A stretch of 64,000 bases of DNA, taken from NCBI RefSeq assembly GCF_000308575.1, contig NZ_BAFZ01000002.1:1-64000 (forward strand), read 5' to 3'. Position numbers and translations under genes: made by a program. Of the stretch, positions 7,309 to 34,840 are shown piece after piece. Each line of letters opens with the position of its first letter. Position 1 is the first letter of the stretch. The stretch is from Nocardia exalbida NBRC 100660. GTDB taxonomy: Bacteria > Actinomycetota > Actinomycetes > Mycobacteriales > Mycobacteriaceae. A model generated the notes under the pieces. That model made no database searches and was not told where the DNA came from. It saw only the letters and a list, made by a program, of their open reading frames with translations.

Positions 7309-7349
7309 CAAGGCCTCCCTTCGGTGCGCGTCTCTTCCTGATTCGTAAC

Positions 7350-9778: not shown

Positions 9779-12700
9779 TCACGGTTGCCATGAGCGGAGA
9801 ATCTCGAGTTCCGCGCGTGGCGGCAGTAGCTCGGTGTGACCGGACAGCTCACGCACCTGGATCACAGCCTCACTGAATTCGGTGTTGACGAATTCGATCA
9901 GTTGGGGGGTGAGTTGTCCGGCGGCGGCCAGCGGCGCCAGTTTGACGGTGTCGTTCATGACCCGTTTGAACTTCTCGAGCCGGGCGAATTCGACCATATC
10001 GGGGCCACCGAGTTCGCGAGGCACCTCGATGCCGGGAATGAGATGGCCCAACCGGGCCCAGTCGTAGGCGCTCGGGCCGGTGACGGCGAGCTCCCAGTCG
10101 AGCAATGTCACGTGTAGTTCGTTGCTGATGAGGAAGTTTCCCTCATTCGGGTCGGCATGCAGGATGTGGTGGCGGGACTCCCGCATCGATCCGGCCTCAT
10201 CGATGAGTGGCTCGAAAGGATTTCCGCGCAGCAGGCCGAACTCGTCGAACAGCTGTCCGAAGCGGTCATAGTGCCGACGATAGAAATTCTCTGTGTACCA
10301 AGCGATATGACTCAGGTACCAGCCGCCGGTGTCGCCCCTTTCGACGCCTGGCGGCGTCAGTCGCGCCAGCAGCGGATGGTCCTCCGGCATCGCGCGCAGC
10401 TGCTCGTGGATGTTCGCGAAAGCCCGCAGTATCAGGCCCTGATGGGATCGGATCGTTCTCCGGTCGGCCCGCCGGAACGTCTCGGCGAGATTGTCTCCCC
10501 GCGCGAGTCTTTCGATGAGAATCGGCGTCGATTCGTCGACGACGCGCCCGTCCGGCATGCGGCCGGTGATGACTTTCAGCAGTTGAGGCGCGTTCCGGAC
10601 GTATCGAGAGATGTCGGGGAGGGTGCTGTGCTCGGGTCCGAAACGTGGATCGTAGCTGTCGGTATCGGGCCGGCCGATGCGCAGAACCAAGCCGAGGGTT
10701 TCGAGGATGACCGTCGTGTTGTAGGTCCCCGACAGCGCATCATGAAGTAGTGGTTGAGCCGCTCGGTACACCGTCAGGCCCTCGTCGTGCGTCATGGCGA
10801 ACCCCCGGCGGCCCCCGAGCGGTCGGTACTCGTTCGCGGTGAGCAGCTGAGACACGTCGCGGACGGTGGTGGGGGTCTCGATCAGCGGAGCGGCTGATCG
10901 GCCGGAGGCGTCCGGCGCGGTTTCGATATCGGCGCCTTGTCCGACCATGATCAGTCCGATGGTGTTCGGATCGCCGTTCCGGTCGCGGTGGGGGTTCAGC
11001 GTATACACATCTTCAGTGCCGACATGGAGCTGATCGGCGGTGAGGAGCCGGTCGTCGGCCGAGTCGGGAACGAGAACGATCTGGTCCACAGCTCGATCCA
11101 TCCACAAAGTGTCGGCGGCCGCGCGCAGCACACCGATACCGTCGCCGTGTCCGATCACAGTGAACAACTGTGACCTGCGTGACCAACTCTGGTCTCTGCT
11201 GTCGAGGGCCAATTCGCGGGTTGCGTCATAGGTGATGAGTTCCCGCATCACGTTGTCCCCGGCTACGTCGCGAGCCGCGGCGTTGTCTATTGCCATGGTG
11301 GCCGGCTCAGCTGTGTGCGAAGGATGTCTTCGCCATCCCGTCCATCGTCGACGTCGATCCGCGGCGGCTGCGCGCGAGCTTCGAGACGAAGGTGCCGGCG
11401 CATCGATTTCACGCGGTGAGCCGACCGTGAACATGATCGCTACACGGGTGTCGCGGGGCGCGTGTTGCTGCGCTTTCTCGAACTGCCGGCAGGCGTGACC
11501 CGACCAGTGCGACAGATCGGTTACAGGCGTGTCGGCTCCGGTGACGTTGAACGCTATGAAAGATGCGCTGTCGGCTTCGCCGATCGAGACGACAGATCGG
11601 CCCGTGCCTCCTTCGGCGATGGGATCGTAAGAGATCAGCAGCACCGGTGGCGGAGCCGAGCCGGGGGAGGCGAGCCCGAAGGCACGGTGTCTGACCTCTG
11701 CCAGCTGGTCGCGCAGCGTGGCCAGCTCCTGCCGGCGTTCGGGCGCGATTCCGGGGGATTCGAGGTCGCGGGCGAGCGATAGCCGATTCGCCAGATCCCG
11801 CGCCCGGTATTCGATGCCAGGGGCTGCTCCGATGATGTGCGGATACTGTCTCAGCACCGCCAACTGCATCTGCGACACCGAGAAGTCCGTGGCTCCCGCC
11901 AGCAGGGAACCGATCGGTGTGTTCCCGCCGGTCCATCTCCCGAGCTTGTTCCACCATCGCATGTTTTTCGAGACGTTGTCGAAGGTGTCCTCGAACAGAT
12001 CCGGGGAATCGCTGTGGAGGAGCAATGAGGAGATGCCGGCGTCCGGTCCTCGGACGTTGTGCAGCAAGTCCGCTGCGGTTGCGGCGAGGGCACGCTCGTC
12101 ATCGGTGATTTCCCAGTCCCACGGCAAGACGGGGTCCAGCCGATGCTCGCGAGTCGCGTACTCGATCCCCGGACTCTGGCTACCCAGTCCCCACAGCGCC
12201 CGTACTCCCCAGAGGAATGATCGGTGTAAGGGAGACTCCGATCCGACGCCGAAGAAATCCGACAAGGTTTCATGAATGCGCCGCGCCCGGACTTCGGGCG
12301 CTCGGCGCGAGTCCGCGGCGAGGATGTCTTCGTGGAGTTTGTGTACGTTGTCGGCGGCGTCCTGTAGCGAATAGACGACGATGTGGTTCGCGAAGCGCGT
12401 GGTGGCCTCGGTCAGCAGGTCGTCGGCCTGACGCAGGTAGTCCAGTCCCAAGGCGAAGTTGCTCGTGGGGAGCAAGTAGAACGCCGCATCGAGCAGATGC
12501 GGCAGGGCGGTCGCGGCCGTCGCGGCGAACAGCCGGTCGGAGCCGGTTCGCGCCCGATCGAGCGCAAGGGCGTGGACGGGCAGCGACTCGAAGATCGTGG
12601 CGTACCTGGGTGAGAAGTCCTCCCCGGATCGCTGCCGTAGCAGCGTGTTCATGACATCGGCCCACTCCGTGACCATTCGAGACATTGTCGGGCTGCGCAT

Positions 12701-15700
12701 GTCGTCCAGCACAACGGACTGCGCCAGCCGCACATGTTCCGCATCGAGGGCGCCATCCGGCGGGAACGCATCCTCCTCGAGCCAGATGCGGTGCTGCGCG
12801 GCTTCTTCGACATGGCGTGCTATCTCCTGGAGATGCGCCGGGACCGTGTGGTGCATGGCGCCCACCGACCAGCGGTGCTCGACGACCGTACGGGACACAG
12901 CGAACGCGGCGTCGAGCACTGCGGTCATGCCGGCGTGCAGGTCGGCGACGGTGCTCCGGCTCGCCCGCAGCCAGGACCCGAGAGCGAACAATTCCCGGTA
13001 GGTGCTCGGCGTGTCGGTAGGAACGCTGTCGCCGAAGCGGCCGGCCGCTTCCGTCACGATCGCGCCCAGCAGGCGTGCCGGATCGATCACATGGTCGGTC
13101 GCCGATGGCGGTTTGCCGCGATGAATGGCAGCTAGCTGTGCGGCGACCCGGTGGGTGAAGCCGGTCAACAGGTGCTGCAGAACGTCATCGGAGAGGCGTG
13201 CGGCCCAATTCCGGTGGTGGTCGAATGTGGCCTCGACGCGGAAGGTCGACAGGGCAGCGTTGGCGATTCGCTCGGCTTCGCTCCGTGCACCGCCGAACGC
13301 GCCGCCATGCGGGTCATCCGCGTTCGCGGCATGAGCCACCACGCCCTCGGGTAAACCCCGTGGGACGCCGCCGAGGTGATTCGCCACTACCGACGGCGGA
13401 TCGAAACCGACTCCATCGAGACCACGGGCACGTTGTGGCGGAAGATCCAGCACCACAGCCGGATCGAACGGCGCATCGGCGCCCGGGCCGAACGCCGGCG
13501 TCCGAACAGCGGTCGTCGGGTCACGCGCCACATCTCGCGGGTCGACCTGTCGCGCGAGACCGCTGCCGGGCGCCGCAGCGGTGGGGGTGGTGGCACTGCT
13601 CGATCGCGCCTCCGACTGCTGCGTGTGAGCCAGCTGGAGTATCTCGGTGAACGACAAAATCTGCTGATCAGACCCCTGCCGCGCCCGAGCAAGCGACTGG
13701 GCCACATTCCAAGCCAACCCGAGCAGCTGTTTGTCGTCGGAATCCGGCGACTTCGCCGCGTCCACCAAGCGGACGGTGTCGACGAAGACTCGGTTCAGGT
13801 CGAGCAGATGAAGCCAAGGCCCCAGGCGACCATGGAGCCGGTCGAGTATGAACGGGGCGCTCGGGCTCCGGTGTGAGAAAACCGCCGCTTCATAGTCCTT
13901 GGGACCGTAGAGAGCCAGCCCGAAGTCCACGATTTCGTAACCTCGTGGGGTCGCTAGGATATTGGCGTTTGTCAGATCGCCGTGTATGACGATAAAGGGC
14001 TGGGAGCGGACGTACGGTAGTTCCGGCTCGAGTATGGGTCTCAGCGATTCACCCAGTCCGACGCGACCGAGCATGGTTCGGTACGGCTCCACCGAGCGAT
14101 AGCGCTGATAATTCTGCTCGATGAATTCCATGAGCATTCGGAAGAAGCCCACCGAATCGCCCGATTCCGGATATCCGGCCGGTAGCGGCAGTAGTGTCTG
14201 CGGGACGGGAACCTCGTTCAGCTGATGATTTGCTGCCACGACAGCCTCGAGCATTTGTAGGTCGTGGAGGTTCGTCACAGGTTCGCCGTAGATCCGCCGC
14301 TGAATCTCGAACAGCACATCGCCCTGGTCGTCCAGTTCTACGTGCAGCACCCGTGGCACCCCTTGTACACCGGCCTGCGCCAACGCGTGCAACGTCTGGT
14401 ACTCCTTCGGCCAGAGCACGAAGTCCAGCCGATCCGGGCCTTCCTTCGGGATACGGATGGCGAAATCTCCGAGCAGGTAGACGTTGTTGTAGGAACCCGA
14501 CATCGGCTGACCGTGCTCGACCGCGGCGTCACGGAGCGCCACCGCCATCGTTCGTGGCAGCACCACACCCTGATCGCCACCGAGATGCCGGTATTCCTCG
14601 ACCGGCAGCAGGTCGCGCAGCGCCGGATACACGGATGGGAGTGCGTGTGGCGACACGAAGTAGATCGGCTCGTTCGAGCCGTCGACCGCCATTTCCTCTT
14701 CGGATGTCACCACATAGAGCGGTTCATCGAGGTCTTCCGGGGCGTGCGCCACATACAGCGGTGCGTCGAGATCGACGTCGCCGTCAGACGCATCGCGGAT
14801 CGCGCCGACATCGGGTGTCGTCGCCTCGTTACCGCGTGTGCCCGCCGGCGCCGGGGTGTGCGCGGTCTCCCCGACGGCCTTGTCATCTCGGCGGTTCCGG
14901 TCGGCGGCATGCGCCACCACTCCGTGCGGCACTCCGTGCGGCACTCCGCGGAATGGATCCGCGACCGCGGCCGGCGGATCGAAGCTCAGCCCATCCAGAC
15001 CGCGGGCTCGGTGTGGCGGAAGATCCAGCAGCGGAATGTCGTCCTCATAGTCTGGTTTCAAGTCCCATCGTCCTCGCGACCAGTGCATCCACTTCGGCAA
15101 CGGCAGCGGATCGGATTCGGCGCGCCGGATCGCCTGCATGCGGTGGTCGTCGCCGCGGGCGCGATAGAACGCGTCCCGTTCGGCACGGAAGTGGCTCGCG
15201 ATGACGGGTAGCGCGTCCATGCCCATCATGTGAGAGACGCCGCGGAAGAGATACAGCTTCGATGTCGGGATGAGCCTGGCGTTATCGCGGCTGTGGTCGA
15301 CAGGTGAGAATTGGTCGGCGGCGCCGTGCACGATGTCGACCGGGACGCGGTACTGGTCGAACCGGATGCCCCAGTTCCCGGTCAGCTGAATGGCGTCATC
15401 CGCCCATGCTTGCGGATAGTTCCGCAGCGCGCGTTGATAACCCCGTGCGAGCTCTTTGCGGTGTGTGCCCACCCACATGTGGTCCACCCTGGTGAATGCG
15501 TCCTGGTTGTAGCGGAGCAACCACTCCCCGTCCCGCGCGATGTTCTCGGCCATCTCGGTGAGCATCGCGGCCATGGCTTCGATGTCGGCCCTGGCATAGA
15601 TCTGTTGGTTCGCATCGGCCATGCCTGCCATCCACTTACCCATGTCGTCGAGCCGCGGAGCGGTACCCACGAGGGAGACGACCCGGTCGACATGGTCTGG

Positions 15701-27700: not shown

Positions 27701-30700
27701 ACCGGGTCTGCTCGGTCTGGCCGACGGAGTGCCGCCGCCTGGGTTCGGTTGTTCCTGGTCCTCGTAGTCGGCCGTGGCCAGGCGTTGATCGCCGACGTGA
27801 GCACGCTCTTCGTCGTCGGAGATGAGCGGTTCCGCCGGTACTCGGCTGCCCGCCGGCGGTTGATCCCCCGAGCCGAGTGGGGATTCAGCCGGCTGGACCG
27901 GGTCGCCGTTGGTAGCGGTCGGTGGTGTGGTCTTGTCGCGCTCCGGATGTGGATGGTTGGTGGGCTCCTCGGGTTCGTCCATACCCGAGAGCTGGCCGGT
28001 GACGGGGTTTTTGTAGTTGAGTACGCCCCAATCGAGTCCGTCAGGTCCGAGGATGCCTGTCAATGTCCGGTGACGCCTGCGGGCGGGACGATCGGATGCG
28101 AACGGATCGATGTCCTGGAAGGCCACCACTGGGCCCGGAGACTGCCCGCCGCCGCCCGGCTGCTCGGGACGACTCGGCGGGGCGACGTCCGTCGGTACGA
28201 ACTTGTCGGCTGCGCCATCCGGTCGAGTCGGCTGCCGGCCACTCGGGGAACCGCCGCCGCTTCCTGTCTTCTCCGCGCCGGCGACCGGGGCAGCATCCAT
28301 CAGCGGAAGGTTGCCTGTGCGTAGTGCGAAAGCCGCCATCCCCGCGCGATGATGGGTACCGAACTTCTGGTTGATATTGAAGACGTACGTTTTCACGCTC
28401 TGCCGGGTCAGGCCCAGCGCAGCGGCTATCTCGTTGTCGTTCTCGCCTTGCGCGACCAAACCGAGCACTTCTCGTTCACGAGGCGTCAGCTCCGGCCGGG
28501 CGGCGCCATCCGACGCGGTCGCATCGATCGGGGGAATGATGCCGGTGCGGATGACGATCGCCACCGACCCGGCTCGGGTGCCTACGCCGAGTTTTCGATT
28601 GATCCGCGACGCATAGGACTCCACAGTCTGCGGGGTCAGTGCGAGATCGTCGGCTATCTCGGCGCTGGTCTTGCCTTTCGCGATGAGGGTCAGCACCTCG
28701 ATCTCGCGTTGGGTGAACTCAGGAAGAGCCTGGCCGGGTTCGCCTTCCCGTGTGGTGCGAGGAAGGACGTCCGTGCTGACGGCCACGGCAACCATCCCCG
28801 CCCGGGTGGGTGAGCCGAGCTTCTCACCGGCGCGCTCCACGAGAGAATCCACCGCCGCCACGGAAATGTCCAACTGCGTGGCGATCTGGGGGCTCGATTT
28901 GCCCTCCGCGACCAGAGCGAGGACCTCGGTCTCGCGCGGGGTCAGGTCGGGCAAGGGTGAGCGGGCTCGATCCGCGGGGTCGTCGAGCGTTTGCGGCAGA
29001 ATGTTTTTGCGGATCGCCGCCACTACCGCCGTTACCCGGTCCTCTGCGCCGAGTTTGCGTTCGATGCGGACGAGGTGGGCACGGACCGTGGTTTCCTTCA
29101 ACCCGATCAACACGCCGATTTCCCGGAGCGATTTGTCCTCCGCGACCAGCCGCAGTTCGGTCAGCTCGAGGTCGGTCAGCGTGCCGGTGCTGTCGAGCGG
29201 CTCCATCGGCAGCAAACGAACGAATGCCTTGATGGCGTCGCCCTGCAAGGGTGAGAGCTCTTGGCCCTTCTCGACCGCGGATACGACATCGATGACGCGC
29301 CTGCGCACCAGCGGACTCAACTTGCTGAGAATGACCAGATCAAGTAACTCCATCCGGGCCAGCGCCTGGCTCACCGGGTGAAGCTCCCCCGCACCCTCGG
29401 TTTGCCGATAGGCCGCGGTGATCCCATCCCTTATGTGAGTGAAGTCGCGAGGAGGGGCGGCGGGTGCGTGGGTCTTGGCCTGCCCCTGCTGGTTCGGGTC
29501 GCGTAGCGGAGTGGAACGGTTGTCGGAATTCTTCGCATCGGACCGCACGCCCGGCGTCGGCACCGAGATAGGCGTCCTGGTCGCGTCTACCGGCGGTGGC
29601 GGAGGTGGGGGCGGCGGTTGTTTTTTGCGGCGTTTGGGTTTGTCCTCCGGCTCGGCACCCATCCGGGTGACCAGGCGCTTACCTTCCCTCTTCTTCGGTG
29701 GCGGCGCGGGTGAGAGGTGTGGGACTCCGCCTATGGCGGGAAGGCGGCTGGGGTCCTCGCTGTATTCGAGGGAATGCGGGTTCAGGTGGGGGGCCGCAGG
29801 TTTTTGCGGAGCGCCTGGGGTTTCGGAGTTCGGTTCGGTCGCATACCGGGACGGCATCGCCAGTGCGTCGGGCGTTTTGCCGAGCCCGGCGTCCAAATTG
29901 GTTTCCGGTGCGGCCGAATGGCGGTCCGATAGGGGATTGGTGATGTCGGGTGGCCGTGGTGACGTGGGGTCGGGGGTGTTTCCCGAGTCGTCAGGATTCT
30001 GGAAGGCGCGGCCCAAACCGACGGAATCGGCAGGTAGGGGCGTCAGAGCGGGTGTGCGCGGGATGACCGGAATGGCGTTTTCGGGTGGTTCGTCCTCCAA
30101 CGGGTAGGAGACGCCGGGGATGGTTACGTAATCCCCGGCGGGCTTCTTCTGGACGTTGTGGTCCCGGGGGTCTTGTTGGACGCTGTGCTCCCGCGGGTCT
30201 TTCTGGACGTTGTGCTCTCGGGGGTCGTCCACGACGGTTCCCGGCGGGGTGGGGAACTCTTCTGGGTCTGCGTCGGGTTCGTCGTCGGTGCCCGGCCGGA
30301 CGGCTGCGGCGATGGGGGGCGGTGGTGTCGAAGAAGTCTGGGGCGTGGTCGAAGCCGATGTTGTCGGCGCGTTCGTGTGGGCGGCCGGGCCGTGGGCACC
30401 CGGTGTGGGGCCCGCCAGCGGTCCGGTGCTCTGGGAGCCGCTGGGCGGTGTGGGGCCCAGGGGTGGCTTCGGTCCGCCAGTGTGCGAGGTGCCGCCTGCC
30501 GCCGCCGGGGCGGCCGCTGACGGGGTGGCCGAGTTCGTGGCGTTCGAAGGGACGACGGGGTTTCGCGGCTCGGCCGTGGCGGAGGCATAGCCCGCCGGCG
30601 CGGGGTCGGCCTTCGGTATCGCCGCACTGGCTTGTGCGCCGGGAATCGGCGTATCGGTCCCGGCGGACACTGCGGGTGGGGCATCGGGAATCGATTGCGC

Positions 30701-32548
30701 GTGGCCCGCGATGAGGTCGTCCGTTCCGGTACGAGCCGCAGGGGCCGGTGGGGCGTCCACCGCTTGCATCGACGGCGCGGTGGCACTCGCCGGTGGGGAA
30801 GTCTGCGCCAGTTCCGCTTCCAGCGCGGCGATCTCCGCGTCGAAATCGACTTGGTGAACGGGGGGTGCTTCGTGGGTGGCAGCCCCCTCGCCCAGCGATT
30901 CACCGGAAGGTCGCGGTCCCGTCATGTCCTGGGATGCATGGCCCGCGGTCTGTTCCGGCGCGAGCAAGTACATTTCCCCGGCGGGTCCGTGTTCGATCGC
31001 GATGGGCGCGTAAGCACTGCTGCCGTCGTCGAACAGGACTTCGGTGCCCGGCGCGATGTCCGGTTGGGTGACCGCGCCTTCGGTGATCACATTGATCCCC
31101 TGCTGGTCCGGACGCACCTGAGGATCGCTGATCTGAAACTGGCGGGCAGGCAGTGGTGTGACCGGACCGCCTTCGGGATGTGCGGCCACCGCGACGCCGC
31201 CCCGGGCCGGCTGGGCGGTGTCCCACGCGGGCCAACCGGTGCCGCCGCCACGGGATGAGGGGTGCGACGACCCTCCCGACGGGTAGTCGGGCGCGACGCC
31301 GGGTGTCGTTCCGCCGCTGCCGTCCGGCAGCTGTCCAGGGCCGTCGCCTCCCATTATTCGGGCGAGGGCGTCGTCGACCATATCGCGGAGGATCTGATCG
31401 CCCTCCGCCATCATCTCCGGGGTCAGGTCGTCCGGCCGGTCCATGGAGCCATCACCGAACTCGGGCCCGGGGCGCCTCGCTTGCGGCGCGTCCACCTCAC
31501 TGGTGGTGGAAACAGGTTCAGGAGTCGCCGTTTGCGTCTGGGGCGGCTGACCGTCCCCAGGCGCGGAAATCCTCGCCGATGGCGCGGCGTCGGAGGGTGG
31601 ACCCGAATCCGCGGACGCCACCGGTTCGGGTACACCGGCATATGCCCCGGCCCGTGCGGCCCGCACCGATGCGCCGAGTGACCCGACCAGTCCCGAGCCG
31701 AACCCGGTCCACACCATGGTGGCCAGATCCTTGCCGCGCAGTTCGCCCTTCGTCAGAGCGAATGCGGTCAGGCCGCCCGCGAGACCACCGGCCATACCGC
31801 CCACGCCGCCCGCGGCCACGGTGCCGAGCACCCGGCCGCCCGCTCGCATCGCCGCGGGTGCGACACGACGACCGACCTCCACACCGACCAATCCACCGAC
31901 GGCGCCTGCCGCCGCTCCGATCCTGACCTGCTGCCAATCCACCGCCTTCCGGTGGCCTTGGGCGATCTGCACACGCTGGGCGACATAGGGAACCCCACCA
32001 CCGATCGCCGTCCCGAAGAACACGCCTTTCGAGGCCAGCACGAGTCGCGGGTGTTCGGCGACGAACCGCGCGGCGCGTGTCAGCATGGTCAGCACCAAGT
32101 CGCGCTCGGCGAGTTCCATCCCCACCCGAGCCTCGGCGCGATCGGTGATCGCCTTCACGATGCTGCCGGGCGGCGGCATCGCCATATCGATGATCACCTG
32201 TGCCAGCAGCGCTCCCGCGATCCCGATGAGGACGTACTGCTGGTATTCGATGGCTGTGGCGTTGTCGTACAACTGCCGCGCCATGGCGTTGTTGAACTCG
32301 ATCTGCGCATGGATCTGGCCGATGATCTTGCGGTATTGCTTCTGTACCTCCGTACCGGTCTCGCCCTCGACCGCCTTCTCCAGCTGCTCCACCATCGGCT
32401 GGAGCCGATGCAGCACCAGGACGAGCCCGTTCGCCGCGTCCGACCAGGTGTCGGCGCTGCGCCGCATCGCCTCGGGATCCCCCTCCGGAAAGTGTCCCAG
32501 CACCATCGCGGTCAGCCAGTCGGGGAAATAGTCGGGAATCTGCACCAT
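9779..32548 (-). CDS. Giant multidomain ESX-secreted polymorphic toxin-like protein, 7589 aa
   Basis: An uninterrupted ORF of 22,770 bp. Its ATG at 32548 overlaps the stop of the WXG100-like gene (TGATG) and its stop is followed after 4 bp by the candidate immunity gene. The first 300 residues resemble the CpnT-type N-terminal domain (WLTAMVLGHFPEGDPEAMRR, then Gly/Ala-rich hydrophobic stretches), which directs type VII secretion. A Pro/Ala/Thr-rich linker runs to about residue 1110. After that come many recognisable modules, listed separately: HTH arrays, sigma-like segments, three APH kinase domains, a papain-like toxin domain, a DUF3626-like domain, a DUF4185-like propeller, an M3 peptidase, an alpha/beta hydrolase and a DUF1023-like relic. 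The GC content by eye is lower and the codon use looser than in flanking housekeeping genes, consistent with acquisition or relaxed selection. I cannot say which domain, if any, is the delivered toxin, or whether the chain is processed. Alternative reading: a giant surface or scaffold protein. Confidence 0.9.
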   Translation of the reverse strand: MVQIPDYFPDWLTAMVLGHFPEGDPEAMRRSADTWSDAANGLVLVLHRLQPMVEQLEKAVEGETGTEVQKQYRKIIGQIHAQIEFNNAMARQLYDNATAIEYQQYVLIGIAGALLAQVIIDMAMPPPGSIVKAITDRAEARVGMELAERDLVLTMLTRAARFVAEHPRLVLASKGVFFGTAIGGGVPYVAQRVQIAQGHRKAVDWQQVRIGAAAGAVGGLVGVEVGRRVAPAAMRAGGRVLGTVAAGGVGGMAGGLAGGLTAFALTKGELRGKDLATMVWTGFGSGLVGSLGASVRAARAGAYAGVPEPVASADSGPPSDAAPSARISAPGDGQPPQTQTATPEPVSTTSEVDAPQARRPGPEFGDGSMDRPDDLTPEMMAEGDQILRDMVDDALARIMGGDGPGQLPDGSGGTTPGVAPDYPSGGSSHPSSRGGGTGWPAWDTAQPARGGVAVAAHPEGGPVTPLPARQFQISDPQVRPDQQGINVITEGAVTQPDIAPGTEVLFDDGSSAYAPIAIEHGPAGEMYLLAPEQTAGHASQDMTGPRPSGESLGEGAATHEAPPVHQVDFDAEIAALEAELAQTSPPASATAPSMQAVDAPPAPAARTGTDDLIAGHAQSIPDAPPAVSAGTDTPIPGAQASAAIPKADPAPAGYASATAEPRNPVVPSNATNSATPSAAAPAAAGGTSHTGGPKPPLGPTPPSGSQSTGPLAGPTPGAHGPAAHTNAPTTSASTTPQTSSTPPPPIAAAVRPGTDDEPDADPEEFPTPPGTVVDDPREHNVQKDPREHSVQQDPRDHNVQKKPAGDYVTIPGVSYPLEDEPPENAIPVIPRTPALTPLPADSVGLGRAFQNPDDSGNTPDPTSPRPPDITNPLSDRHSAAPETNLDAGLGKTPDALAMPSRYATEPNSETPGAPQKPAAPHLNPHSLEYSEDPSRLPAIGGVPHLSPAPPPKKREGKRLVTRMGAEPEDKPKRRKKQPPPPPPPPPVDATRTPISVPTPGVRSDAKNSDNRSTPLRDPNQQGQAKTHAPAAPPRDFTHIRDGITAAYRQTEGAGELHPVSQALARMELLDLVILSKLSPLVRRRVIDVVSAVEKGQELSPLQGDAIKAFVRLLPMEPLDSTGTLTDLELTELRLVAEDKSLREIGVLIGLKETTVRAHLVRIERKLGAEDRVTAVVAAIRKNILPQTLDDPADRARSPLPDLTPRETEVLALVAEGKSSPQIATQLDISVAAVDSLVERAGEKLGSPTRAGMVAVAVSTDVLPRTTREGEPGQALPEFTQREIEVLTLIAKGKTSAEIADDLALTPQTVESYASRINRKLGVGTRAGSVAIVIRTGIIPPIDATASDGAARPELTPREREVLGLVAQGENDNEIAAALGLTRQSVKTYVFNINQKFGTHHRAGMAAFALRTGNLPLMDAAPVAGAEKTGSGGGSPSGRQPTRPDGAADKFVPTDVAPPSRPEQPGGGGQSPGPVVAFQDIDPFASDRPARRRHRTLTGILGPDGLDWGVLNYKNPVTGQLSGMDEPEEPTNHPHPERDKTTPPTATNGDPVQPAESPLGSGDQPPAGSRVPAEPLISDDEERAHVGDQRLATADYEDQEQPNPGGGTPSARPSRPGPTPWQQSTAPDPGITPPPPGAARNNAPTSPPKVATPRTGAQSAPVQEAPDTPALVRAARNGDSVAFDLLRADLADPIVQWMSARMAGDRAAAEGLTEEVFTRAAAGIGRLRAEQNIKQWLGVIARNVLVEHRRYERLRDGIWASYTGPRNTESGPQGGLLARADRATVLRAVHQLPSDHRKVLVWRFEQDKTATQIAESMPSAWESRTVRRVERRAAQRVVELVAAELGVVVGGQSAQRRQQWRLIQDADPGELERHIHMLPERQREVAGLLLPGKAKALGTSPRRLRETLYQQVVPALATLLAGGVVLTDHEAVMLTRAAQRHDPAVLAPYVPGLDPLHQKTFEQFFMQRRTVNEMAAAERSKPKTIYMRVYRVAQFMAQKVPRELRESYTNRGLLQSATTPDVAREAGVSQSTAEKVLRGQGEFAPETRRRVLEAADRLGHTFVQREGVAPPLRVVGPAEQYRYLGGDAGYRMTRYEAHVLFESAVRSGTSTVGDFSVRIPDASTADGRPLFPEHELWQMMPPHVQRFRKVLHLLSDVRLPDGRILDSSTPVLIEQRPPGAVPTDFQFDRLRAMVLRSMEGLRRALGEVPVEPLRQWLPGFPEDRDTEGFLRFLTGEWTGQVSRYRQAGWAEMFTDLEIPGRDPFAAILEQAIFMIPARFEVLHGRLGRENIRIDRGRITAITGWAGALIGDPAFDWAWLNHRGAGDYVPSRLRPPNTPIYESLLHVRRVVHGAVELVAQGEPDPNRIAEYAASYAMVRRFWGLPARNPGLLRDIFEAQRRRLAVDSAARTEPRTGQPENPEGAGRQTPWSGGAPSAQPEAEPLVRGKSGRPTPWQRAAPSPRAPERQSGPTAGTASPDSPPVPVRRPAQPTAPIGTVSPRDSAGPVDRTNSDIEATNAVDLPCAVGAFADAWDLGFDVRQPVDVDGPVPAAAVSWLAGAHHRRFDDGLGEVAQLITDLGPGAGMLVNVRPVGAAIGHLFLLHNDGKHLWIHDRQAAEPKAVFDPRNFPFAVQTTHALLLTRQGSGNTLESRQQQLGEEIAPADPDMARGRALRPVDAGALPPEDHIDEPSAATPISRGRPSDTTLELMHRYLDAVAAADGQAQELLVEVEQHIPDTGERAYVQRFAENERHAAALAEELGIPLERLRTLMAEELRKLFDGEIVTRATSGSLRGILGSGRFKTEFDFAGQSRMGRSLLAGRVALEQALFGYPPDLPTQSRPIYGFIRTAPSYRVTEGDALAQYGDIDIVFKSAVEERTTANVGDTKSVVAIPSRVTDPQPESFAATPHGHKTLGYIGLEGIDRDYTGKRFTGSTYIEAQVHGATVADIDYVVFHTSPPDQHLRELLDAAGIPWSHFFRNPSNPSRTVQAAGRPRTAAPEAKAPEPETPDQPPRAATPASGAEKAAALNIDEPPAPGEAVSARPAALPGTTTRPAPPSFAEFRTALCTALAAATEQPAPEQVLADATAQQMRNALRRLTRDQLTVIEGLKAGATIVEIAHERNSGWESVVVNANQAVKRVVRSITKARTQSDRLFRALAEATPQQIQEALRTLGPARRVVMGLFRDRQNVADIAVTLGLDEATIRLMAAGAVKRMAREIAKNRGEDIGPDAQGTARSGISTRVNSEPISGSEAELLVEAAHRDDPVVLQWAVEHFLKGRQRQVGKLLFVDGASVKDAAKATNLSESQIAHFAGKARVNLAKHLSERLDPPQPLIPGEDGSRGRPRMPATSHESGTSGPSLDAIPLLRNVLHRWEELIPTRSAEITHSQVVQRGQSPTSKSATKRSRTRPMPSGHAGTGLTGREVEVIGLAAQGLSVRDIALTLGIAPHSAESHLGRARRKLVGTGTRAEAIAEAERSGIFGENHEQRTPAPSREGAAETAMQHEQERRDGIPTPRPDAASEPGLVVQAIPHAELTAALASYGDTGDGWTGADSTYSRRLPDGRHLWMFSDTFLGTVHPDGSRPATSPMVKNTFVVDDQGRMSTVHGGTADAPTAVVPSPKGQMLWVGGGYVTGDVLNIMLVRFVNNDPDDLMWGLTWDENVLARFDADDLSLIDLTPMPSQAGVMWSAWLDYDGTHTYVYGTEESGSDKFMHVARVSGDDLRAQWEFFDGERWTPNENDSARIMPGVANEYSVTRWRDRYLLITQDTSAPFSAEIWAYLSDSPTGPFTLPTLVYRAPEAGADGSFEDPNVYAYNAHEHPDLRSGDTLIVSYNVNSLDFEGVVGDVSKYRPRFVTVRLNPGFGSSSTDATEHTPGPEHGTTPNGIPNQAGPITPSQSPSRNEDPEDVDVQPSEPRTETSADPRREADRSEPDASDGLDPATNPVLAAVLNPAGDPAFDRMKAEHFPPVFEYAMRMQLAAIDDIVGAPGPWTADNALRPFVRSGLLLGAVKQLFAQKAAVDRDAATAEAEPVVAELQDAHANRILTDPASAEIFRYLHEHRSDLELSDTEIGYLERKYQDFENAGAYLSTDQEKHRLSELNSEVAVLQTAYKDNQERALEDIEIRVDDAGELRGLTGDQIESARSRAGEDGGYLLPKPPSISGIWYPYLTYLSDPALRQRIYEKVAALAIVDHDNSQNVLDQVRKLAERAEITGKNNHAEYVMSSGIFDSVATVRNILDRIARAAATAARIEIPLLAEAISTEQIRPWDRYRALDVLIGRRVGIDEQMIREFFELDRVLEKGVFRVAEDLFELTITELVEQGKPPVWHEDVRVFAVLDKEGQHLTNFYFDPYARKGKNGGEWTDPIRLKFTPTGQRPLISVHLNLEKPPTGKPTLLAPNQLDTLFHEFGHALHFLLGAGTHEPAKRHLVFAWIEFVAKVFQQFWKHPDVVENYAVHHRTGEPMPPEMLEKLDEWRTAYRGTATVFRLAGAYVDLGWNSLSSAQVPSGRDPRAMVQEFEEAVLRQAGIYFSEIGNPYPSQWFRHLFAQMGAFGTYSGQYWSYLLSDVLALTVFGLRIDPSIEQHSGLTPETGKIILDEILRYEENDLAQATRRLIGPQPALEHFLSDQRLLWPEALLELGVNATPQWLSTPAERPPGTDLESWWNERLTPALRAAMIQAFPTEVLAMDIALSPETVAAAEQRRRTLLEYSRDARTATTPSAAQTTARNPHTTRGPHEARDQLDDGSHRVSGTGPAGMALDLPERKAWDIGTVPPPRRRFDPGMVHAVDPRLEPDAWAVGRRGRRPQRPPDAHEPAGDASVSRPAAQPMPRGDEIETTDHHENGSRSAGQPGARENTGGGIRITPAGLIVPADPTNSLIVPAAHVMPADPSLEELMERLSPWKEIFSYFWEFPLPREGEPSGREWIESSERKAWMRRRAIRRAPLYAGVDAAVRLTLGAERLLKAPNATHGPATLRQRRVIPGRGEIDAEKKRTMDADAEVREANRADVEEMTAFEKFWRRVSGDELPQTKQIRQGELAYVGGRLLRAEGHNLMVAGRYAAGYNLMVAGRDPVLTPEEYALWLMFSHDALWTVHYPGCRELEPQSPDFLLTRYLTVAIFDKIASKPLEVQYLDHVVRPYLRRQGVAAGRVLLHELSHHLPNSCRSTMEQLGVWALRGLGRKVGAEVEEHLDNCAACRNSASTLPAADSSLGGRKLLVPPGPVGDGSTEHHPASRPPAALEAQHGDRDANPETSAAERGEAAEPAPETTQRISSLQTRMAEMNGMTVQRHREGEVVSADRLNRAYGQIEAELVRLRSTGTVNDDVPVAAGPDHQLAMDSIFHPERAYQQAYRDAMSRLLGYQFARANSAPAEAQKLLAEIRQSIDRLAELAADPGRTEIDDIELLVTIFEWTEQADAGGRPIPLEDDQADRRADEVSEAAPIRLLDSAEGGAGAATETASAISMRPDPVQGEHDSAETRRQEARHRGHRAALPNDTVRAVPEPDETADLGIVSQLYAARMPDGRTVHFRLLGNPFGYPILFSPGTPVGVDGPLPDPRQLSDRGFTLIVVERPGYGDSDPLPGRTVADCARDIIHIATELFAFDRYSVLGRSGGGSVAIAVGALDPDHVDRVVSLVGTAPRLDDMGKWMAGMADANQQIYARADIEAMAAMLTEMAENIARDGEWLLRYNQDAFTRVDHMWVGTHRKELARGYQRALRNYPQAWADDAIQLTGNWGIRFDQYRVPVDIVHGAADQFSPVDHSRDNARLIPTSKLYLFRGVSHMMGMDALPVIASHFRAERDAFYRARGDDHRMQAIRRAESDPLPLPKWMHWSRGRWDLKPDYEDDIPLLDLPPHRARGLDGLSFDPPAAVADPFRGVPHGVPHGVVAHAADRNRRDDKAVGETAHTPAPAGTRGNEATTPDVGAIRDASDGDVDLDAPLYVAHAPEDLDEPLYVVTSEEEMAVDGSNEPIYFVSPHALPSVYPALRDLLPVEEYRHLGGDQGVVLPRTMAVALRDAAVEHGQPMSGSYNNVYLLGDFAIRIPKEGPDRLDFVLWPKEYQTLHALAQAGVQGVPRVLHVELDDQGDVLFEIQRRIYGEPVTNLHDLQMLEAVVAANHQLNEVPVPQTLLPLPAGYPESGDSVGFFRMLMEFIEQNYQRYRSVEPYRTMLGRVGLGESLRPILEPELPYVRSQPFIVIHGDLTNANILATPRGYEIVDFGLALYGPKDYEAAVFSHRSPSAPFILDRLHGRLGPWLHLLDLNRVFVDTVRLVDAAKSPDSDDKQLLGLAWNVAQSLARARQGSDQQILSFTEILQLAHTQQSEARSSSATTPTAAAPGSGLARQVDPRDVARDPTTAVRTPAFGPGADAPFDPAVVLDLPPQRARGLDGVGFDPPSVVANHLGGVPRGLPEGVVAHAANADDPHGGAFGGARSEAERIANAALSTFRVEATFDHHRNWAARLSDDVLQHLLTGFTHRVAAQLAAIHRGKPPSATDHVIDPARLLGAIVTEAAGRFGDSVPTDTPSTYRELFALGSWLRASRSTVADLHAGMTAVLDAAFAVSRTVVEHRWSVGAMHHTVPAHLQEIARHVEEAAQHRIWLEEDAFPPDGALDAEHVRLAQSVVLDDMRSPTMSRMVTEWADVMNTLLRQRSGEDFSPRYATIFESLPVHALALDRARTGSDRLFAATAATALPHLLDAAFYLLPTSNFALGLDYLRQADDLLTEATTRFANHIVVYSLQDAADNVHKLHEDILAADSRRAPEVRARRIHETLSDFFGVGSESPLHRSFLWGVRALWGLGSQSPGIEYATREHRLDPVLPWDWEITDDERALAATAADLLHNVRGPDAGISSLLLHSDSPDLFEDTFDNVSKNMRWWNKLGRWTGGNTPIGSLLAGATDFSVSQMQLAVLRQYPHIIGAAPGIEYRARDLANRLSLARDLESPGIAPERRQELATLRDQLAEVRHRAFGLASPGSAPPPVLLISYDPIAEGGTGRSVVSIGEADSASFIAFNVTGADTPVTDLSHWSGHACRQFEKAQQHAPRDTRVAIMFTVGSPREIDAPAPSSRSSRAAAADRRRRWTGWRRHPSHTAEPATMAIDNAAARDVAGDNVMRELITYDATRELALDSRDQSWSRRSQLFTVIGHGDGIGVLRAAADTLWMDRAVDQIVLVPDSADDRLLTADQLHVGTEDVYTLNPHRDRNGDPNTIGLIMVGQGADIETAPDASGRSAAPLIETPTTVRDVSQLLTANEYRPLGGRRGFAMTHDEGLTVYRAAQPLLHDALSGTYNTTVILETLGLVLRIGRPDTDSYDPRFGPEHSTLPDISRYVRNAPQLLKVITGRMPDGRVVDESTPILIERLARGDNLAETFRRADRRTIRSHQGLILRAFANIHEQLRAMPEDHPLLARLTPPGVERGDTGGWYLSHIAWYTENFYRRHYDRFGQLFDEFGLLRGNPFEPLIDEAGSMRESRHHILHADPNEGNFLISNELHVTLLDWELAVTGPSAYDWARLGHLIPGIEVPRELGGPDMVEFARLEKFKRVMNDTVKLAPLAAAGQLTPQLIEFVNTEFSEAVIQVRELSGHTELLPPRAELEILRSWQP
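9800..10870 (-). other. Module: C-terminal APH-type kinase (copy 3), residues 7227-7583
   Basis: The last folded unit of the giant chain, hence the position of a classical C-terminal toxin. It opens with NEYRPLGGRRGFAMTHDEG and shares MPDGRVVDESTPILIER with copy 1. Catalytic loop HADPNEGN has His7464 and Asp7466, and LLDWELAVTGPSAYDW has Asp7484, so the active site looks intact. Confidence 0.82.
10925..11720 (-). other. Module: degenerate DUF1023-type hydrolase, residues 6943-7208
   Basis: Strings such as SPGSAPPPVLLISYDP, GRSVVSIGEADSASFIAFNV and the closing LHVGTEDVY match the actinobacterial DUF1023 alpha/beta hydrolase pattern. The nucleophile elbow normally reads VIGHSYGS. Here it is VIGHGDGI, with Gly7135 in place of the serine, so the module should be catalytically dead. 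The preceding residues, about 6415-6940, form an unassigned helical region. Confidence 0.65.
13328..13452 (-). repeat. Linker repeat B (LDLPPQRARGLDG...FDPP)
   Basis: Second copy of the inter-module linker, starting VLDLPPQRARGLDGVGFDPP and ending GVVAHAAN, about 1.58 kb from copy A. DNA similarity to copy A is obvious by eye, including AGACCACGGGC/AGACCGCGGGC and GTTGTGGCGGAAGATCCAGC variants. Confidence 0.85.
13640..14620 (-). other. Module: APH-type kinase (copy 2), residues 5977-6303
   Basis: Phosphotransferase fold opening with EEYRHLGGDQGVVLP. Catalytic loop HGDLTNANIL has His6189 and Asp6191, and DFGLAL has Asp6208. Both catalytic acids are intact, in contrast to copy 1. It resembles small-molecule kinases more than protein kinases. 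The phosphate acceptor is unknown. Confidence 0.82.
14905..15030 (-). repeat. Linker repeat A (LDLPPHRARGLDG...FDPP)
   Basis: Encodes a linker starting LLDLPPHRARGLDGLSFDPP and ending GVVAHAAD. It is closely similar to the segment at 13328-13452, and a more distant version (ALDLPERKAWDIG, then RRRFDPGMVHAVD) lies near 18200-18290. The copies sit between folded modules. Confidence 0.85.
15130..16055 (-). other. Module: alpha/beta hydrolase with apparent triad, residues 5498-5806
   Basis: A standard alpha/beta hydrolase. The oxyanion-hole region is GNPFGYPILFSPGTP, followed by VVERPGYGDSDP. The nucleophile elbow is GRSGGGSVAIA with Ser5603. The acid is Asp5745 in HGAADQFSPV, and the base is His5773 in GVSHMMGM. 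The cap is helical. All three triad residues are present and correctly ordered. The substrate is unknown. Confidence 0.88.
16980..17930 (-). other. Module: HELSH segment with anti-sigma-like HxxxCxxC end, residues 4873-5190
   Basis: An unrecognised helical domain. It contains HELSH at residues 5146-5150, which fits HExxH of zinc metallopeptidases, and ends with EEHLDNCAACR, where His5182, Cys5186 and Cys5189 form the HxxxCxxC pattern of zinc-binding anti-sigma factors (zf-HC2). Either motif could be accidental. A repeated HNLMVAGR / YNLMVAGR string lies before them. Confidence 0.45.
18650..20738 (-). other. Module: M3-family zinc oligopeptidase, residues 3938-4634
   Basis: A nearly full-length M3 (Dcp/thimet-type) peptidase of about 700 residues. 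It has a helical N-terminal half (YLHEHRSDLELSDTEIGYLE, and others), NFYFDPYARKGKNGGEW before the active site, and the zinc motif HEFGHALH with His4401, Glu4402 and His4405. Glu4429 in FAWIEF fits the third zinc ligand. The usual FVE-LPSQ context after that Glu is diverged (IEFVAKVFQQFW). Downstream YSYLLSD-type and QMGAFGTYSGQYWSYLLSDV segments also match the family. It is probably active, or only recently not. Confidence 0.88.
20980..21990 (-). other. Module: DUF4185-like five-bladed propeller, residues 3520-3857
   Basis: It resembles DUF4185/DUF5005, whose characterised actinobacterial members (GH183) are endo-D-arabinanases acting on mycobacterial-type arabinogalactan. Signatures are WTGADSTYSRRLPDGRHLWM with FSDTFLG near the start, NEYSVTRWRDRYLLITQDTS, and the closing SGDTLIVSYNVNSLDFE with PRFVTVRL. 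Asp and Glu residues suited to catalysis are present, but which ones act is not established here. Confidence 0.7.
22125..23390 (-). other. Module: second HTH block (sigma-4-like and LuxR), residues 3053-3475
   Basis: Two or three sigma-region-4-like helix-turn-helices come first (LRRLTRDQLTVIEGLKAG with IVEIAHERNS; LRTLGPARRVVMGLF with VADIAVTLGLDEATIRLM; then VKDAAKATNLSESQIAHF). A fifth LuxR-type HTH follows near residues 3414-3475 (LTGREVEVIGLAAQGLSVRD, then HSAESHLGRARRKL). This repeats the theme of the first block. Confidence 0.72.
23615..24450 (-). other. Module: DUF3626-like domain, residues 2700-2978
   Basis: A domain of unknown biochemistry. Distinctive strings are GRVALEQALFGYPPDLP, RPIYGFIR, YGDIDIVFKSAVEERTT with VGDTKS, and TYIEAQVHGATVADIDYVVF. 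These match what I recall of DUF3626, which has occasional resemblance to ADP-ribosyltransferase-like folds. I am not sure of that link, and the function is unknown. Confidence 0.6.
24625..25010 (-). other. Module: papain-like Tox-PL domain, residues 2514-2642
   Basis: The pattern fits papain-fold toxin domains (glutamine deamidase or protease effectors). Cys2522 lies in DLPCAVGAFADAW, His2596 in IGHLFLLHNDGKHLWIHD, and Asp2611 in the closing HDRQ. The GH....HN.GK.....D.Q spacing is the Tox-PL signature. All three presumed catalytic residues are present, so this is a good candidate for a toxic activity within the chain. Confidence 0.78.
25340..26335 (-). other. Module: APH-type pseudokinase (copy 1), residues 2072-2403
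   Basis: An aminoglycoside-phosphotransferase-like fold related to the two later kinase modules, sharing the entry motif YR.LGG..G and the strand LPDGRILDSSTPVLIEQ. The Brenner-type loop reads HGRLGREN starting at His2282, so the catalytic Asp is Arg2284. The metal-binding motif reads ITGW in place of LLDW. Both catalytic acids are therefore missing and the module should be inactive as a kinase. Confidence 0.8.
26361..27547 (-). other. Module: sigma-70-like regions followed by LacI-type HTH, residues 1668-2063
   Basis: Residues 1668-1845 look like an ECF sigma factor. There is a region-2-like part (ALVRAARNGDSVAFDLL, then IKQWLGVIARNVLVEHRR) and a region-4-like part (LHQLPSDHRKVLVWRFE with TATQIAESM). 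A second region-4-like segment follows (HMLPERQREVAGLLL, then NEMAAAERSKPKTIYMRV). Residues 2014-2063 are a LacI-type HTH (TPDVAREAGVSQSTAEKVLRG, with EFAPETRRRVLEAADRLG). All are assigned by motif and none is a complete transcription factor. Confidence 0.75.
28303..29179 (-). other. Module: four tandem LuxR-type HTH units, residues 1124-1415
   Basis: Four consecutive GerE/LuxR-like helix-turn-helix units of about 65-75 residues. Their openings are LTDLELTELRLV, LTPRETEVLALVAEGKS, FTQREIEVLTLIAKGKT and LTPREREVLGLVAQGEN. Each continues with the IA..L.....V..H/Y/L....KLG recognition-helix pattern and ends in a similar LP/IPP tail. Units 2-4 keep the canonical PRE-EVL core and unit 1 is diverged. 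Tandem copies of this domain inside one polypeptide are very unusual, because LuxR HTHs normally act as single C-terminal DNA-binding domains of transcription factors. Confidence 0.88.
30146..30226 (-). repeat. Three tandem 27-bp repeats in the linker
   Basis: Three consecutive 27-bp units encode DPREHNVQK, DPREHSVQQ and DPRDHNVQK within the Pro-rich linker of the giant ORF. The units differ at a few positions, so the duplication is not brand new. Length variation between strains would be expected here. Confidence 0.9.
31650..32548 (-). other. Module: CpnT/WXG100-like secretion domain, residues 1-300
   Basis: Helical start with the pattern FPEGDPEAMRRSADTWSDAA, typical of N-termini of large actinobacterial toxins exported with EsxE/EsxF-like partners. 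A helix-rich region and a hydrophobic segment (YVLIGIAGALLAQVIIDMAM) follow, then a Gly/Ala-rich stretch around residues 210-265. The family resemblance is by eye. Confidence 0.75.
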
Positions 32549-34272: not shown

Positions 34273-34296
34273 ATCCCGGCAAACCCTTCACCTGCG

Positions 34297-34840
34297 TCAA
34301 CGACACCGAGAGAAGACATTGTCCTCCCGGAGCAGCTCCGGCACCCGTGGCGTCTCTTCCCGAAGCTGGGAGGGGCCCAAGGGTGGGATCAGCTCCCATG
34401 AGGGCGTTCTCCTCTTCGAACAGCGACCGCAGATCGTCCGGTATCTCGACCTTCTCGTGTTCGCGGGCTTCGGCTTCGGAGGTGAAGTACACCGTCTCGA
34501 CGAATCCGTCGTCGCCGTAGGTCGCCAGCGTGCCGCCGAGAATCTCCGGGCGTACCTCGTGCAACCGATCACCCGACCGGGCCAGTATCTCGCGCATCCG
34601 TCCGGCGTCCCGGGTGTGACCTTCCATTACCTGCACGAATCCGGCGCGGTCGGAGCCGCCACCCATCCACTGCGTGACTTCGGCGCAGTCCATGAACGTG
34701 ACCGGCCCGTCGAAGCACTGCTCGGTCTCCCGCCACCAAGCGCCCTGCTCCGGGCGCTCGCTGTTGCGGCGGGCGGCCTCCTCGGATCGTTCGCCGCTCG
34801 GATGCCGCGCGCAAGTGCCGGACGCCGGGCCCTGTCGCGG
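34297..34840 (-). pseudogene. Small conserved-type protein gene, apparently frameshifted, with no clear start
   Basis: A coding signal reads ...SEEAARRNSERPEQGAWW through FDGPVTFMDCAEVTQWMGG to ENALMG. It has strong G/C third positions from about 34789 to about 34400. The first ATG in frame is at 34693, yet the coding signal continues 30 codons further upstream, where no ATG, GTG or TTG occurs before the stop of the preceding gene. After ENALMG the frame loses its G/C bias and runs open deep into the WXG gene. A +1 shift near 34395 restores the bias and ends at a TGA at 34297. Either the gene is decayed at both ends or the sequence has small indels. It would encode a protein of about 150 residues of unknown function. 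Confidence 0.6.

Follow-up and report, generated by a model that had tools for sequence, protein, structure and literature searches.

The first 64,000 nucleotides (nt) of contig NZ_BAFZ01000002.1 of Nocardia exalbida NBRC 100660 (assembly GCF_000308575.1), referred to here as the window, carry on the minus strand a gene of 22.8 kb (9779..32548) that encodes a single chain of 7,589 amino acids (aa), called the giant in the following. The gene is real and intact, and comparison with related loci reveals that the ends of the chain are shared and its middle is variable, which is the main structural fact and was missed in the first-pass annotation of this DNA. With about even confidence, we take the giant to be a likely multi-payload effector or carrier that would be exported by a type VII (ESX) system and that would swap cassettes. 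The observations underlying this reading are the intact frame, an N-terminal WXG100_2 domain accompanied by a WXG100-like partner gene, the shared ends and variable middle, purifying selection, and the small number of cysteines. The WXG100_2 N-terminus and the partner would take the chain to the ESX exporter, cassettes would enter the middle by recombination in linkers, the mixed payload would be delivered into or onto other cells, and after delivery the modules would act in parallel. Export, delivery to other cells and activity are what we infer from the sequence; the regulator-like modules and an arabinan-type propeller weakly suggest that the targets could be bacteria.

The reading frame runs from an ATG start over 7,589 codons with zero internal stops, in a window that is free of N. 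Over the same gene, the other two minus-strand frames contain 179 and 78 stops and the in-register plus-strand frame contains 75. All eight blocks of the frame display a coding-type codon bias, with a GC content of 0.73-0.78 at third positions (GC3) and of 0.46-0.58 at second positions (GC2). In independent assemblies, related proteins are likewise encoded by single frames: P0003 (6,660 aa) shares residues 1-3051 at 92% and 3871-5225 at 87%, and P0006 (7,522 aa) shares residues 1-1554 at 89%, 1615-3015 at 93% and 3479-4738 at 85%. One giant frame occupies the equivalent place in six orthologous loci of other genomes, including the locus in G051, where the giant is broken off by the contig end after 3,830 aa, and the giant is also a single frame in G061 (a one-contig genome) and G022 (a two-contig genome). 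The open frame, the codon bias and the undivided frames in independent assemblies thus establish the gene as real and intact, and they bear out the earlier claim of one uninterrupted 22.8-kb open reading frame (ORF).

The N-terminal 1,000-1,600 residues are 55-71% identical to those of the six orthologues, residues ~6,330-7,589 are 72-82% identical in the five complete orthologues, and residues 6420-7589 recur at 70-92% identity and full coverage in 14 other giants. Between these shared ends, blocks are present, absent or relocated among the orthologues, and the five complete orthologous frames range from 4,894 to 14,207 codons (the longest starts 148 codons before the matching start). Close relatives may have first 310 residues that are 96-97% identical and yet be unlike in the middle. 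Three such relatives, named N. gamkensis, measure 6,357 aa (P0002), 7,322 aa (P0004) and 7,263 aa (P0005); P0002 has residues 1-1574 in common and then none until 4708-5265, except for weak helix-turn-helix (HTH) and kinase likeness, and P0004 has 1-3088 and 3435-4734 in common.

The modules of the chain and the two genes adjoining it are given below, all on the minus strand. Matches stem from a Pfam profile scan of the giant (matches to E 0.1, judged by curated cut-offs), those to APH, DUF3626 and the papain-like family from slices of the chain; dN/dS denotes the ratio of nonsynonymous to synonymous divergence.

9779..32548, minus: giant mosaic gene, 7,589 aa; single ORF, undivided in independent assemblies
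32156..32539, minus: WXG100_2 export-type N-terminal domain, aa 4-131 (PF25547, E 5.8e-9, 36.5 bits against a cut-off of 27)
32177..32233, minus: sole strongly hydrophobic segment, aa 106-124 (Kyte-Doolittle scan at 1.8)
29459..31648, minus: Pro/Ala-rich linker, aa 301-1030 (Pro at least 10% in successive windows to aa 1050; dN/dS 0.26-0.40)
28319..29161, minus: LuxR/GerE-type HTH array, aa 1130-1410 (GerE, E 3.7e-62; dN/dS 0.19-0.24, two pairs)
26534..27631, minus: ECF sigma-like regions 2 and 4 with more HTH-like parts, aa 1640-2005
26375..26491, minus: LacI-type HTH, aa 2020-2058 (PF00356, E 2.2e-7)
25349..26341, minus: kinase fold K1, predicted pseudokinase, aa 2070-2400 (APH, E 4.5e-4, under cut-off)
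24569..25036, minus: papain-like (Tox-PL type) module, aa 2505-2660 (PF15644, E 0.15, 13.6 bits against a cut-off of 24.1)
23579..24481, minus: unnamed shared module, aa 2690-2990 (weak DUF3626 likeness, E 0.055; dN/dS 0.18-0.34)
22109..23461, minus: second HTH and sigma-4-like stretch, aa 3030-3480 (HTH_10 at 3432-3459; IniR-type LuxR HTH at 3394-3467)
20939..22021, minus: DUF5005/DUF4185 propeller glycosidase-like module, aa 3510-3870 (PF16396, 37.2 bits against a cut-off of 29.6)
18449..20761, minus: full M3 metallopeptidase, aa 3930-4700 (PF01432, E 3e-61)
16949..18031, minus: sugar-transferase-like piece and zf-HC2, aa 4840-5200 (PF02397, E 6.1e-8; PF13490, E 4.2e-4, just under cut-off)
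16289..16741, minus: unnamed module, aa 5270-5420 (dN/dS 0.27-0.30)
15059..16066, minus: alpha/beta hydrolase, aa 5495-5830 (Abhydrolase_1, PF00561, E 6.8e-14)
14904..15030, minus: linker repeat, copy 1 (127 nt, 74.8% DNA identity to copy 2, E 6.5e-18)
13619..14656, minus: kinase K2, aa 5965-6310, between both linker copies (APH, E 3.9e-13)
13326..13452, minus: linker repeat, copy 2 (DNA self-repeat)
11879..13261, minus: C-terminal unit, part 1, aa 6430-6890, probably helical (helix from a low-confidence model; dN/dS 0.42-0.55)
10874..11881, minus: C-terminal unit, alpha/beta-hydrolase-like module, aa 6890-7225 (homology to giants annotated PF06259)
9782..10876, minus: C-terminal unit, kinase K3, aa 7225-7589 (APH, E 4.2e-9; dN/dS 0.14-0.23)
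32548..34272, minus: overlapping upstream gene, 574 aa, WXG100-like partner (WXG100, E 3.6e-4)
8281..9666, minus: downstream gene, ~461 aa (YezG-like, E 0.16, not significant)

Several domains that the first-pass annotation had named are matched outright. The CpnT-like secretion domain corresponds to WXG100_2, which is over its cut-off at the N-terminus, the HTH arrays to five GerE stretches within the first 4,000 aa together with the LacI HTH, and the full M3 peptidase to PF01432, with the HEFGH zinc site and the downstream Glu kept; the M3 module also matches K-26 dipeptidyl carboxypeptidase (PDB 5l43) at E 8e-82, covering 8-661 of 771. Other assignments hold in part. Of the sigma-like parts, region 4 (Sigma70_r4, aa 1788-1835) is over its cut-off but region 2 (Sigma70_r2, 1699-1752) is under it, and the stretch matches TIGR02937 at E 3.7e-31. 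Of the three kinase folds, K2 and K3 exceed the APH cut-off, but K1 falls short of it. The propeller hydrolase is over the cut-off for DUF5005 but under that for DUF4185 (GH183 family, PF13810; 36.3 bits against 39.5), and it matches PDB 4hbs at E 2.5e-11. Of the two alpha/beta hydrolases, the first is confirmed by its profile match, but the second, in the C-terminal unit, found no alpha/beta-hydrolase Pfam match in the profile scan and is recognised by homology only; a PDB sequence search with the C-terminal unit returned none at E 1. The sugar-transferase-like piece with its sub-threshold zf-HC2 and the unnamed module at 2690-2990 were absent from the earlier description. For the latter, the best PDB sequence match was ribosomal S9 at E 0.35, which was not kept.

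Inspection of catalytic residues suggests that the payload is heterogeneous. The M3 peptidase, the papain-like module, the first alpha/beta hydrolase, K2 and K3 are predicted to be active, and K1 and the C-terminal hydrolase-like module are predicted to be binding-only or inert. K2 keeps HGDLTNAN and DFG; in K1, HGR and GW stand where K2 has HGD and DF, so that both catalytic Asp are gone and K1 is a predicted pseudokinase. The motifs HxDxxxxN and DFG/DWE are present in K2 and K3, and those of K3 recur in 11 of the 11 giants compared. In the papain-like module, Cys2522 is found in all 11 rows that cover the position, and all 12 rows that reach the His and the Asp keep both; we presume that these three residues have the catalytic roles. 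The earlier claim of a papain-like toxin thus stands as to its conserved residues but not as to the PF15644 cut-off, under which the copy of G061 (E 0.014) also remains. In the first alpha/beta hydrolase, GRSGG, Asp and His are conserved in six of six rows. The propeller keeps GAD and FSDTF in four of four rows; for GH183, the relevant part of PMC10115798 gives D39/D170 as the catalytic Asp. The C-terminal hydrolase-like module has GHGDG and no Ser at the nucleophile site in 11 of 11 giants, some of which are close kin. Three remoter giants annotated PF06259 (P0021, P0022, P0023) align to this module; the aligning copy of P0021 has AHGFG, likewise without Ser, and P0022 (GHSYG) and P0023 contain GHS[YF]G ~35 residues beyond the aligned stretch, the alignments ending before the motif. 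Since K1 and the C-terminal hydrolase-like module look dead, the chain appears to combine modules that are likely enzymes with others that likely are not. Giants at G056:C51, G052:C1 and G066:C8 (7,234-9,196 codons) contain several copies of the C-terminal hydrolase-like module per frame, like a repeated carrier unit.

Purifying selection is evident in all eleven stretches compared (dN/dS 0.11-0.55). The lowest values are those of the sugar-transferase/zf-HC2 module (0.11-0.18), with 0.20-0.22 for the papain-like module, and the laxest, 0.42-0.55, belong to part 1 of the C-terminal unit. Synonymous divergence (dS) between this giant and that of G022 is 0.31 at the N-terminus, 0.32 in the hydrolase and 0.34 in K3, with discordant values of 0.71 for module 2690-2990 and 1.12 for the papain-like module; for the neighbouring genes FHA, PstP and RodA it is 0.23-0.25. 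Against G061, dS is 0.38 at the N-terminus, 0.25 in the sugar-transferase/zf module and 0.65 in the papain-like module. The nearest kin of the M3 module are the M3 modules of other giants (59-62%; G004, G088, G012, G028, G043), and stand-alone M3 enzymes of ~675-875 codons reach 30-34%. Recent capture of M3 from the own chromosome is not supported, as the nearest kin lie in other giants and no further M3 match turned up in the own genome. A tree built from 15 M3 rows groups nine close giant rows with full support, and the row of the G078 giant joins three stand-alone rows of the genus, a placement that carries a long-branch warning.

The occurrence of single modules was scored in 31 other giants at E 1e-4. 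The papain-like module was found in 9, module 2690-2990 in 8, the sugar-transferase/zf-HC2 module in 14, the sigma module in 9, DUF5005 in 4 (one of them a 58-residue piece), the hydrolase (5495-5830) in 4, aa 3030-3340 in 3 and aa 5270-5420 in 4; K3-like kinases were found in 16 and the two parts before K3 in 18 each.

The 127-nt linker pair that surrounds K2 is the only DNA self-repeat found in the giant gene at E 1e-4. Among 17 other giants examined for the linker core motif, 12 have one copy, G022 has two and 4 have none. In P0004, which ends on a K2-type kinase, the motif precedes that kinase, in P0003 and P0006 it follows theirs, and the present giant has both, as expected if two arrangements had been joined; other histories may fit too. 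A clean insertion of K2 between flanking linkers can be envisaged as a possibility. A TPW-like motif was considered as a repeated cleavage or recombination signal and dropped, since one of its four copies is inside the sugar-transferase-like module.

Other properties are consistent with export. The hydropathy scan of the giant found no second strongly hydrophobic segment. The chain contains only 8 Cys in 7,589 aa (1.1 per 1,000), among them the papain-like Cys2522 and the CxxC pair 5186/5189 of zf-HC2, and ten other proteins of the window have 22 Cys in 4,145 aa (5.3 per 1,000). Further indications come from modules of the major facilitator superfamily (MFS), which occur in other giants, not in the 7,589-aa chain. 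Six giants list MFS_1 (P0011, P0016, P0017, P0019, P0020, P0032), and P0016 matches the MFS profile over 10-346 of 347; in the other five, the module was placed by hydropathy instead of by profile. In all six, the most hydrophobic 340-residue stretch has a mean hydropathy of 0.39-0.50 and a top 19-residue window of 1.68-1.87, and 0 or 1 windows reach 1.8, which means that strongly hydrophobic helices are lacking. The best 30 of 91 MFS matches in the own genome all have a mean hydropathy of 0.64-1.10, a top window of at least 2.21 and at least 3 such windows (30 of 30). An MFS fold without hydrophobic helices would hardly work as a transporter and could pass a channel, which supports export of the family as well as the decoy function discussed below. 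As to the exporter, EccB, the ESX component that was searched for, is present at full length (PF05108) on contigs C66 and C130 of the own genome. ESX-4 is the only type VII secretion system of non-mycobacterial Actinomycetota including Nocardia, according to the part of PMC11217815 concerned with its distribution. Two short EccB pieces, which match positions 2-49 and 442-473 of the profile and look like remnants of a broken ESX locus, are located at G000:C141:39548-39915; at 14415, the same contig also carries a relative of the downstream gene. The earlier suggestion of a chain cut into many pieces is not favoured, as nothing was found that points there; among the Pfam matches of the giant at E 0.1 there is no HINT, caspase or subtilisin family.

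The partner is one protein of 574 aa with a long Pro-rich tail, which abuts the start of the giant in seven of seven loci and is 65-81% identical in the other six. Upstream of it, 34274-34693 (minus strand), the start of frame 32993-34693, has no Pfam match and may be a short gene that belongs to this operon. The downstream gene directly follows the giant in all six loci that hold that side, at 85-91% identity. Its product has no significant Pfam match, and a PDB sequence search gave nothing of note. Members of its family, one to nine per genome, were matched in 94 of 96 genomes and often lie next to giant frames, on one side or the other; for at least 16 of the 45 listed giants that reach 5,000 codons, one lies no more than 5 kb away. 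In G050 and G087, whose giants differ in content, a member is found just upstream of the giant, so that the family looks like a general companion of giants and not like the mate of one toxin; the downstream gene probably encodes an export helper or an immunity protein. Past this gene, the neighbours are 92-100% identical where compared in the same six loci, as far as the stretches reach, and we take them from their sequences to be FHA, FHA, PstP, RodA and PbpA (fhaA-fhaB-pstP-rodA-pbpA). Elsewhere in the window, overlapping opposite-strand frames of 1,550 and 1,572 codons occupy 57426-62078 (plus strand) and 57450-62168 (minus strand).

A number of observations weigh against a multi-payload exported effector. 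LuxR HTH, sigma parts and zf-HC2 are modules of normally cytoplasmic work. The WXG100 score of the partner (21.2 bits) is under the cut-off of 27.3, and the papain-like module of this giant is under its Pfam cut-off as well, with no PF15644 match for the copy of G070. A series of immunity genes that would match the warheads one by one was not observed. The shared C-terminal unit is missing from P0004, and P0008 retains just a piece of it. The dN/dS analysis left out sigma, LacI, K1, DUF5005, M3 and K2, because these have no close counterpart in the five orthologues. With respect to linkers, the K2 slot of P0003 and P0006 is filled by a K2-like kinase (47-48%) that is accompanied by a single linker motif, an arrangement that does not favour a clean flanked insertion. 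The cysteine control comprised ten proteins, of which two (FHA, SDR) have none. Structure prediction was of little help: AlphaFold gave a mean pLDDT of 36 with 7 rows for the C-terminal unit, which was not used, and a mean of 57 for the downstream protein, with no fold match at E 0.001.

A tentative variant, which we consider unlikely, is that the family forms a decoy library, in which type VII-delivered, shuffled mimics of regulators and transporters would jam complexes of the recipient as dominant-negative binders and a few modules among them would be true enzymes. In this model, in-frame internal cassettes would be swapped while the ends stay fixed, in chains that reach tens of thousands of residues. 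The mimics would include sigma and anti-sigma parts, LuxR arrays, SecA-like, PP2C and RsbW-like ATPase modules, water-soluble MFS, the pseudokinase and the Ser-less hydrolase, and the complexes jammed would be core ones, including transcription.

About as unlikely is that the giant is a single-warhead toxin, with K3 as the toxin, the 461-aa downstream gene as its immunity gene, and the middle as spacer, targeting or receptor-binding region. The C-terminal position of K3, the kinase motifs that it keeps in all 11 giants compared, its dN/dS of 0.14-0.23 and the conservation of the next gene beside it in six of six loci would all agree with such a function. However, the middle is equally or more constrained, as the values for the sugar-transferase/zf-HC2 and papain-like modules illustrate, the downstream family also occurs upstream of the G050 and G087 giants and thus is not tied to K3, and P0004 has no K3.

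Rather improbable is a surface-retained wall scaffold that displays DUF5005, M3 and the alpha/beta hydrolase and works on the own or a neighbour's envelope or on nutrients. Its attraction lies in the location of the locus beside genes that we take to resemble fhaA-fhaB-pstP-rodA-pbpA. It is not obvious, however, what purpose the HTH, sigma and kinase modules would serve outside a cell, and a second strongly hydrophobic segment was not seen. The related DUF4185 family includes endo-D-arabinanases of the mycobacterial wall, as described in part of PMC10115798, and huge bacterial proteins are mostly annotated to the cell periphery or membrane in the data of PMC11573180 that bear on location, both of which would suit a wall function.

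Slightly more doubtful still is a cytoplasmic signalling scaffold that is never exported, i.e. a giant regulator that gathers DNA-binding, sigma, anti-sigma-like and kinase parts. The menu of the family (LuxR, sigma, LacI, GntR, PP2C, HATPase, kinases) resembles bacterial signal transduction, but the export-type N-terminus with its WXG100-like partner, the shortage of Cys, the MFS modules of other giants that have lost their hydrophobic helices, and a middle that is unlike between close strains argue against it. Finally, an artefact, either a chance frame of a GC-rich genome, where long chance frames are likelier, or an assembly error, can be rejected in view of the codon bias over the entire frame, the undivided frames in independent assemblies and in G061 and G022, and the purifying selection.

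Proteins of this kind have a wide distribution in the genus. A search with the N-terminal 301 aa matched 94 of 98 Nocardia genomes, and the open frames that reach 5,000 codons number at least 45 in at least 35 of the 98, the longest among the matches listed having 21,183 codons. Single frames with the same codon bias encode 40,805 aa (G050:C1:1939687-2062104) and 32,449 aa (G087:C1:1970700-2068049), each in a one-contig genome; in a phmmer scan of slices, the N-termini of these two gave no match to that of the present giant. Module searches also list frames of 52,074 and 36,589 codons for G087. Among 151 genomes drawn from the taxonomic family, 27 match, 10 of Nocardia and 17 of other genera, and the matches in other genera sit in frames of at most 1,954. 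Relatives contain further modules (PP2C, HATPase, GntR, SecA-like, 4'-phosphopantetheinyl transferase, amidase), and precomputed Pfam lists of giants add MFS, prolyl oligopeptidase, GDPD, PI3/4-kinase and others, names that in part we presume to be those behind the accession numbers. The genome of N. exalbida itself encodes a second giant of 9,116 aa (G000:C140:84827-112177), with LuxR arrays, a SecA-like part and a PP2C-like part recognised by eye. A DPVAIDL linker occurs 9 times in it and is absent from the 7,589-aa giant. Just downstream of it, a 259-aa frame (C140:84008-84787) has DPVAIDL near its start, like an orphan cassette, and presumably is ART-like, judging from its motif.

If the giant is indeed an exported multi-payload effector, a genus with human pathogens and soil competitors among its members would swap rows of payloads inside single exported chains instead of one warhead at the tip. 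The family would then be a natural catalogue of domains that it pays to deliver into other cells. It would also strongly test the chain-length limit of ESX export (the 40,805-aa frame is the longest read) and show whether regulator-like domains can act as decoys. The loss of hydrophobic helices in MFS modules may mark exported proteins at the sequence level, which other families would allow one to check.

It is useful to compare the giant with known systems. CpnT has a WXG100-type N-terminal region, an upstream WXG100-family partner and a next gene that possibly confers immunity, and it ends in a single terminal toxin. The Nocardia locus has a similar order, with a WXG100-like partner and a putative immunity gene, but its chain is about nine times longer, and the partner is a single protein of 574 aa whose Pro-rich tail is long. 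For CpnT/TNT of Mycobacterium tuberculosis, an association with EsxE/EsxF is described in the pertinent part of PMC7810871. Polymorphic toxins (LXG, WXG, Rhs, CDI) resemble the giants in having a conserved delivery end and cassettes that vary among relatives, and the orphan-like cassette beside the paralogue on C140 is a further likeness. These toxins usually swap the C-terminal tip together with an immunity gene, whereas the giant varies mostly internally and in frame, without an immunity row; its variation is not confined to the C-terminal tip, contrary to the polymorphic-toxin rule. The GH183/DUF4185 endo-D-arabinanases, as far as covered in PMC10115798, contain a module related to the propeller, which in the giant forms part of a far longer chain. 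K-26 dipeptidyl carboxypeptidase and Dcp (PDB 5l43, 1y79) of family M3 give a long match and have the HEFGH zinc site in common with the M3 module; the M3 modules of giants, except for the unsure G078 row, form a group to which three stand-alone Nocardia enzymes do not belong, and have an insertion before the C-terminal Tyr motif.

The first-pass annotation knew of no described protein of this kind and treated it as singular, a claim that is not upheld: giant WXG100_2 frames are widespread in the genus, and a study of 2012 already described giant actinobacterial proteins that combine several toxin domains, SACTE_5178 of 13,652 aa being the longest toxin of the set, according to the relevant part of that work (Zhang et al. 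2012, PMC3482391). In the literature covered, to which subscription papers mostly did not belong, no account was found of the variable middle or the regulator-like payload of this family, and the main text of the huge-protein survey PMC11573180 does not include Nocardia. Multi-toxin giants of the SACTE_5178 type are the closest known kind. As characterised in the portion of that paper devoted to it, SACTE_5178 of Streptomyces sp. SirexAA-E is, like the present giant, an actinobacterial protein in which a single chain carries many domains, among them several that resemble toxins. Its domains are ALF-type metallopeptidases, caspases, ARTs and MCF1-SHE, whereas the Nocardia giant contains LuxR, sigma and LacI HTH parts, APH kinases, a full M3 peptidase and DUF5005, with an internal varying part between shared ends. 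By comparison, the present giant is set apart by its variable middle and its regulator-like payload.

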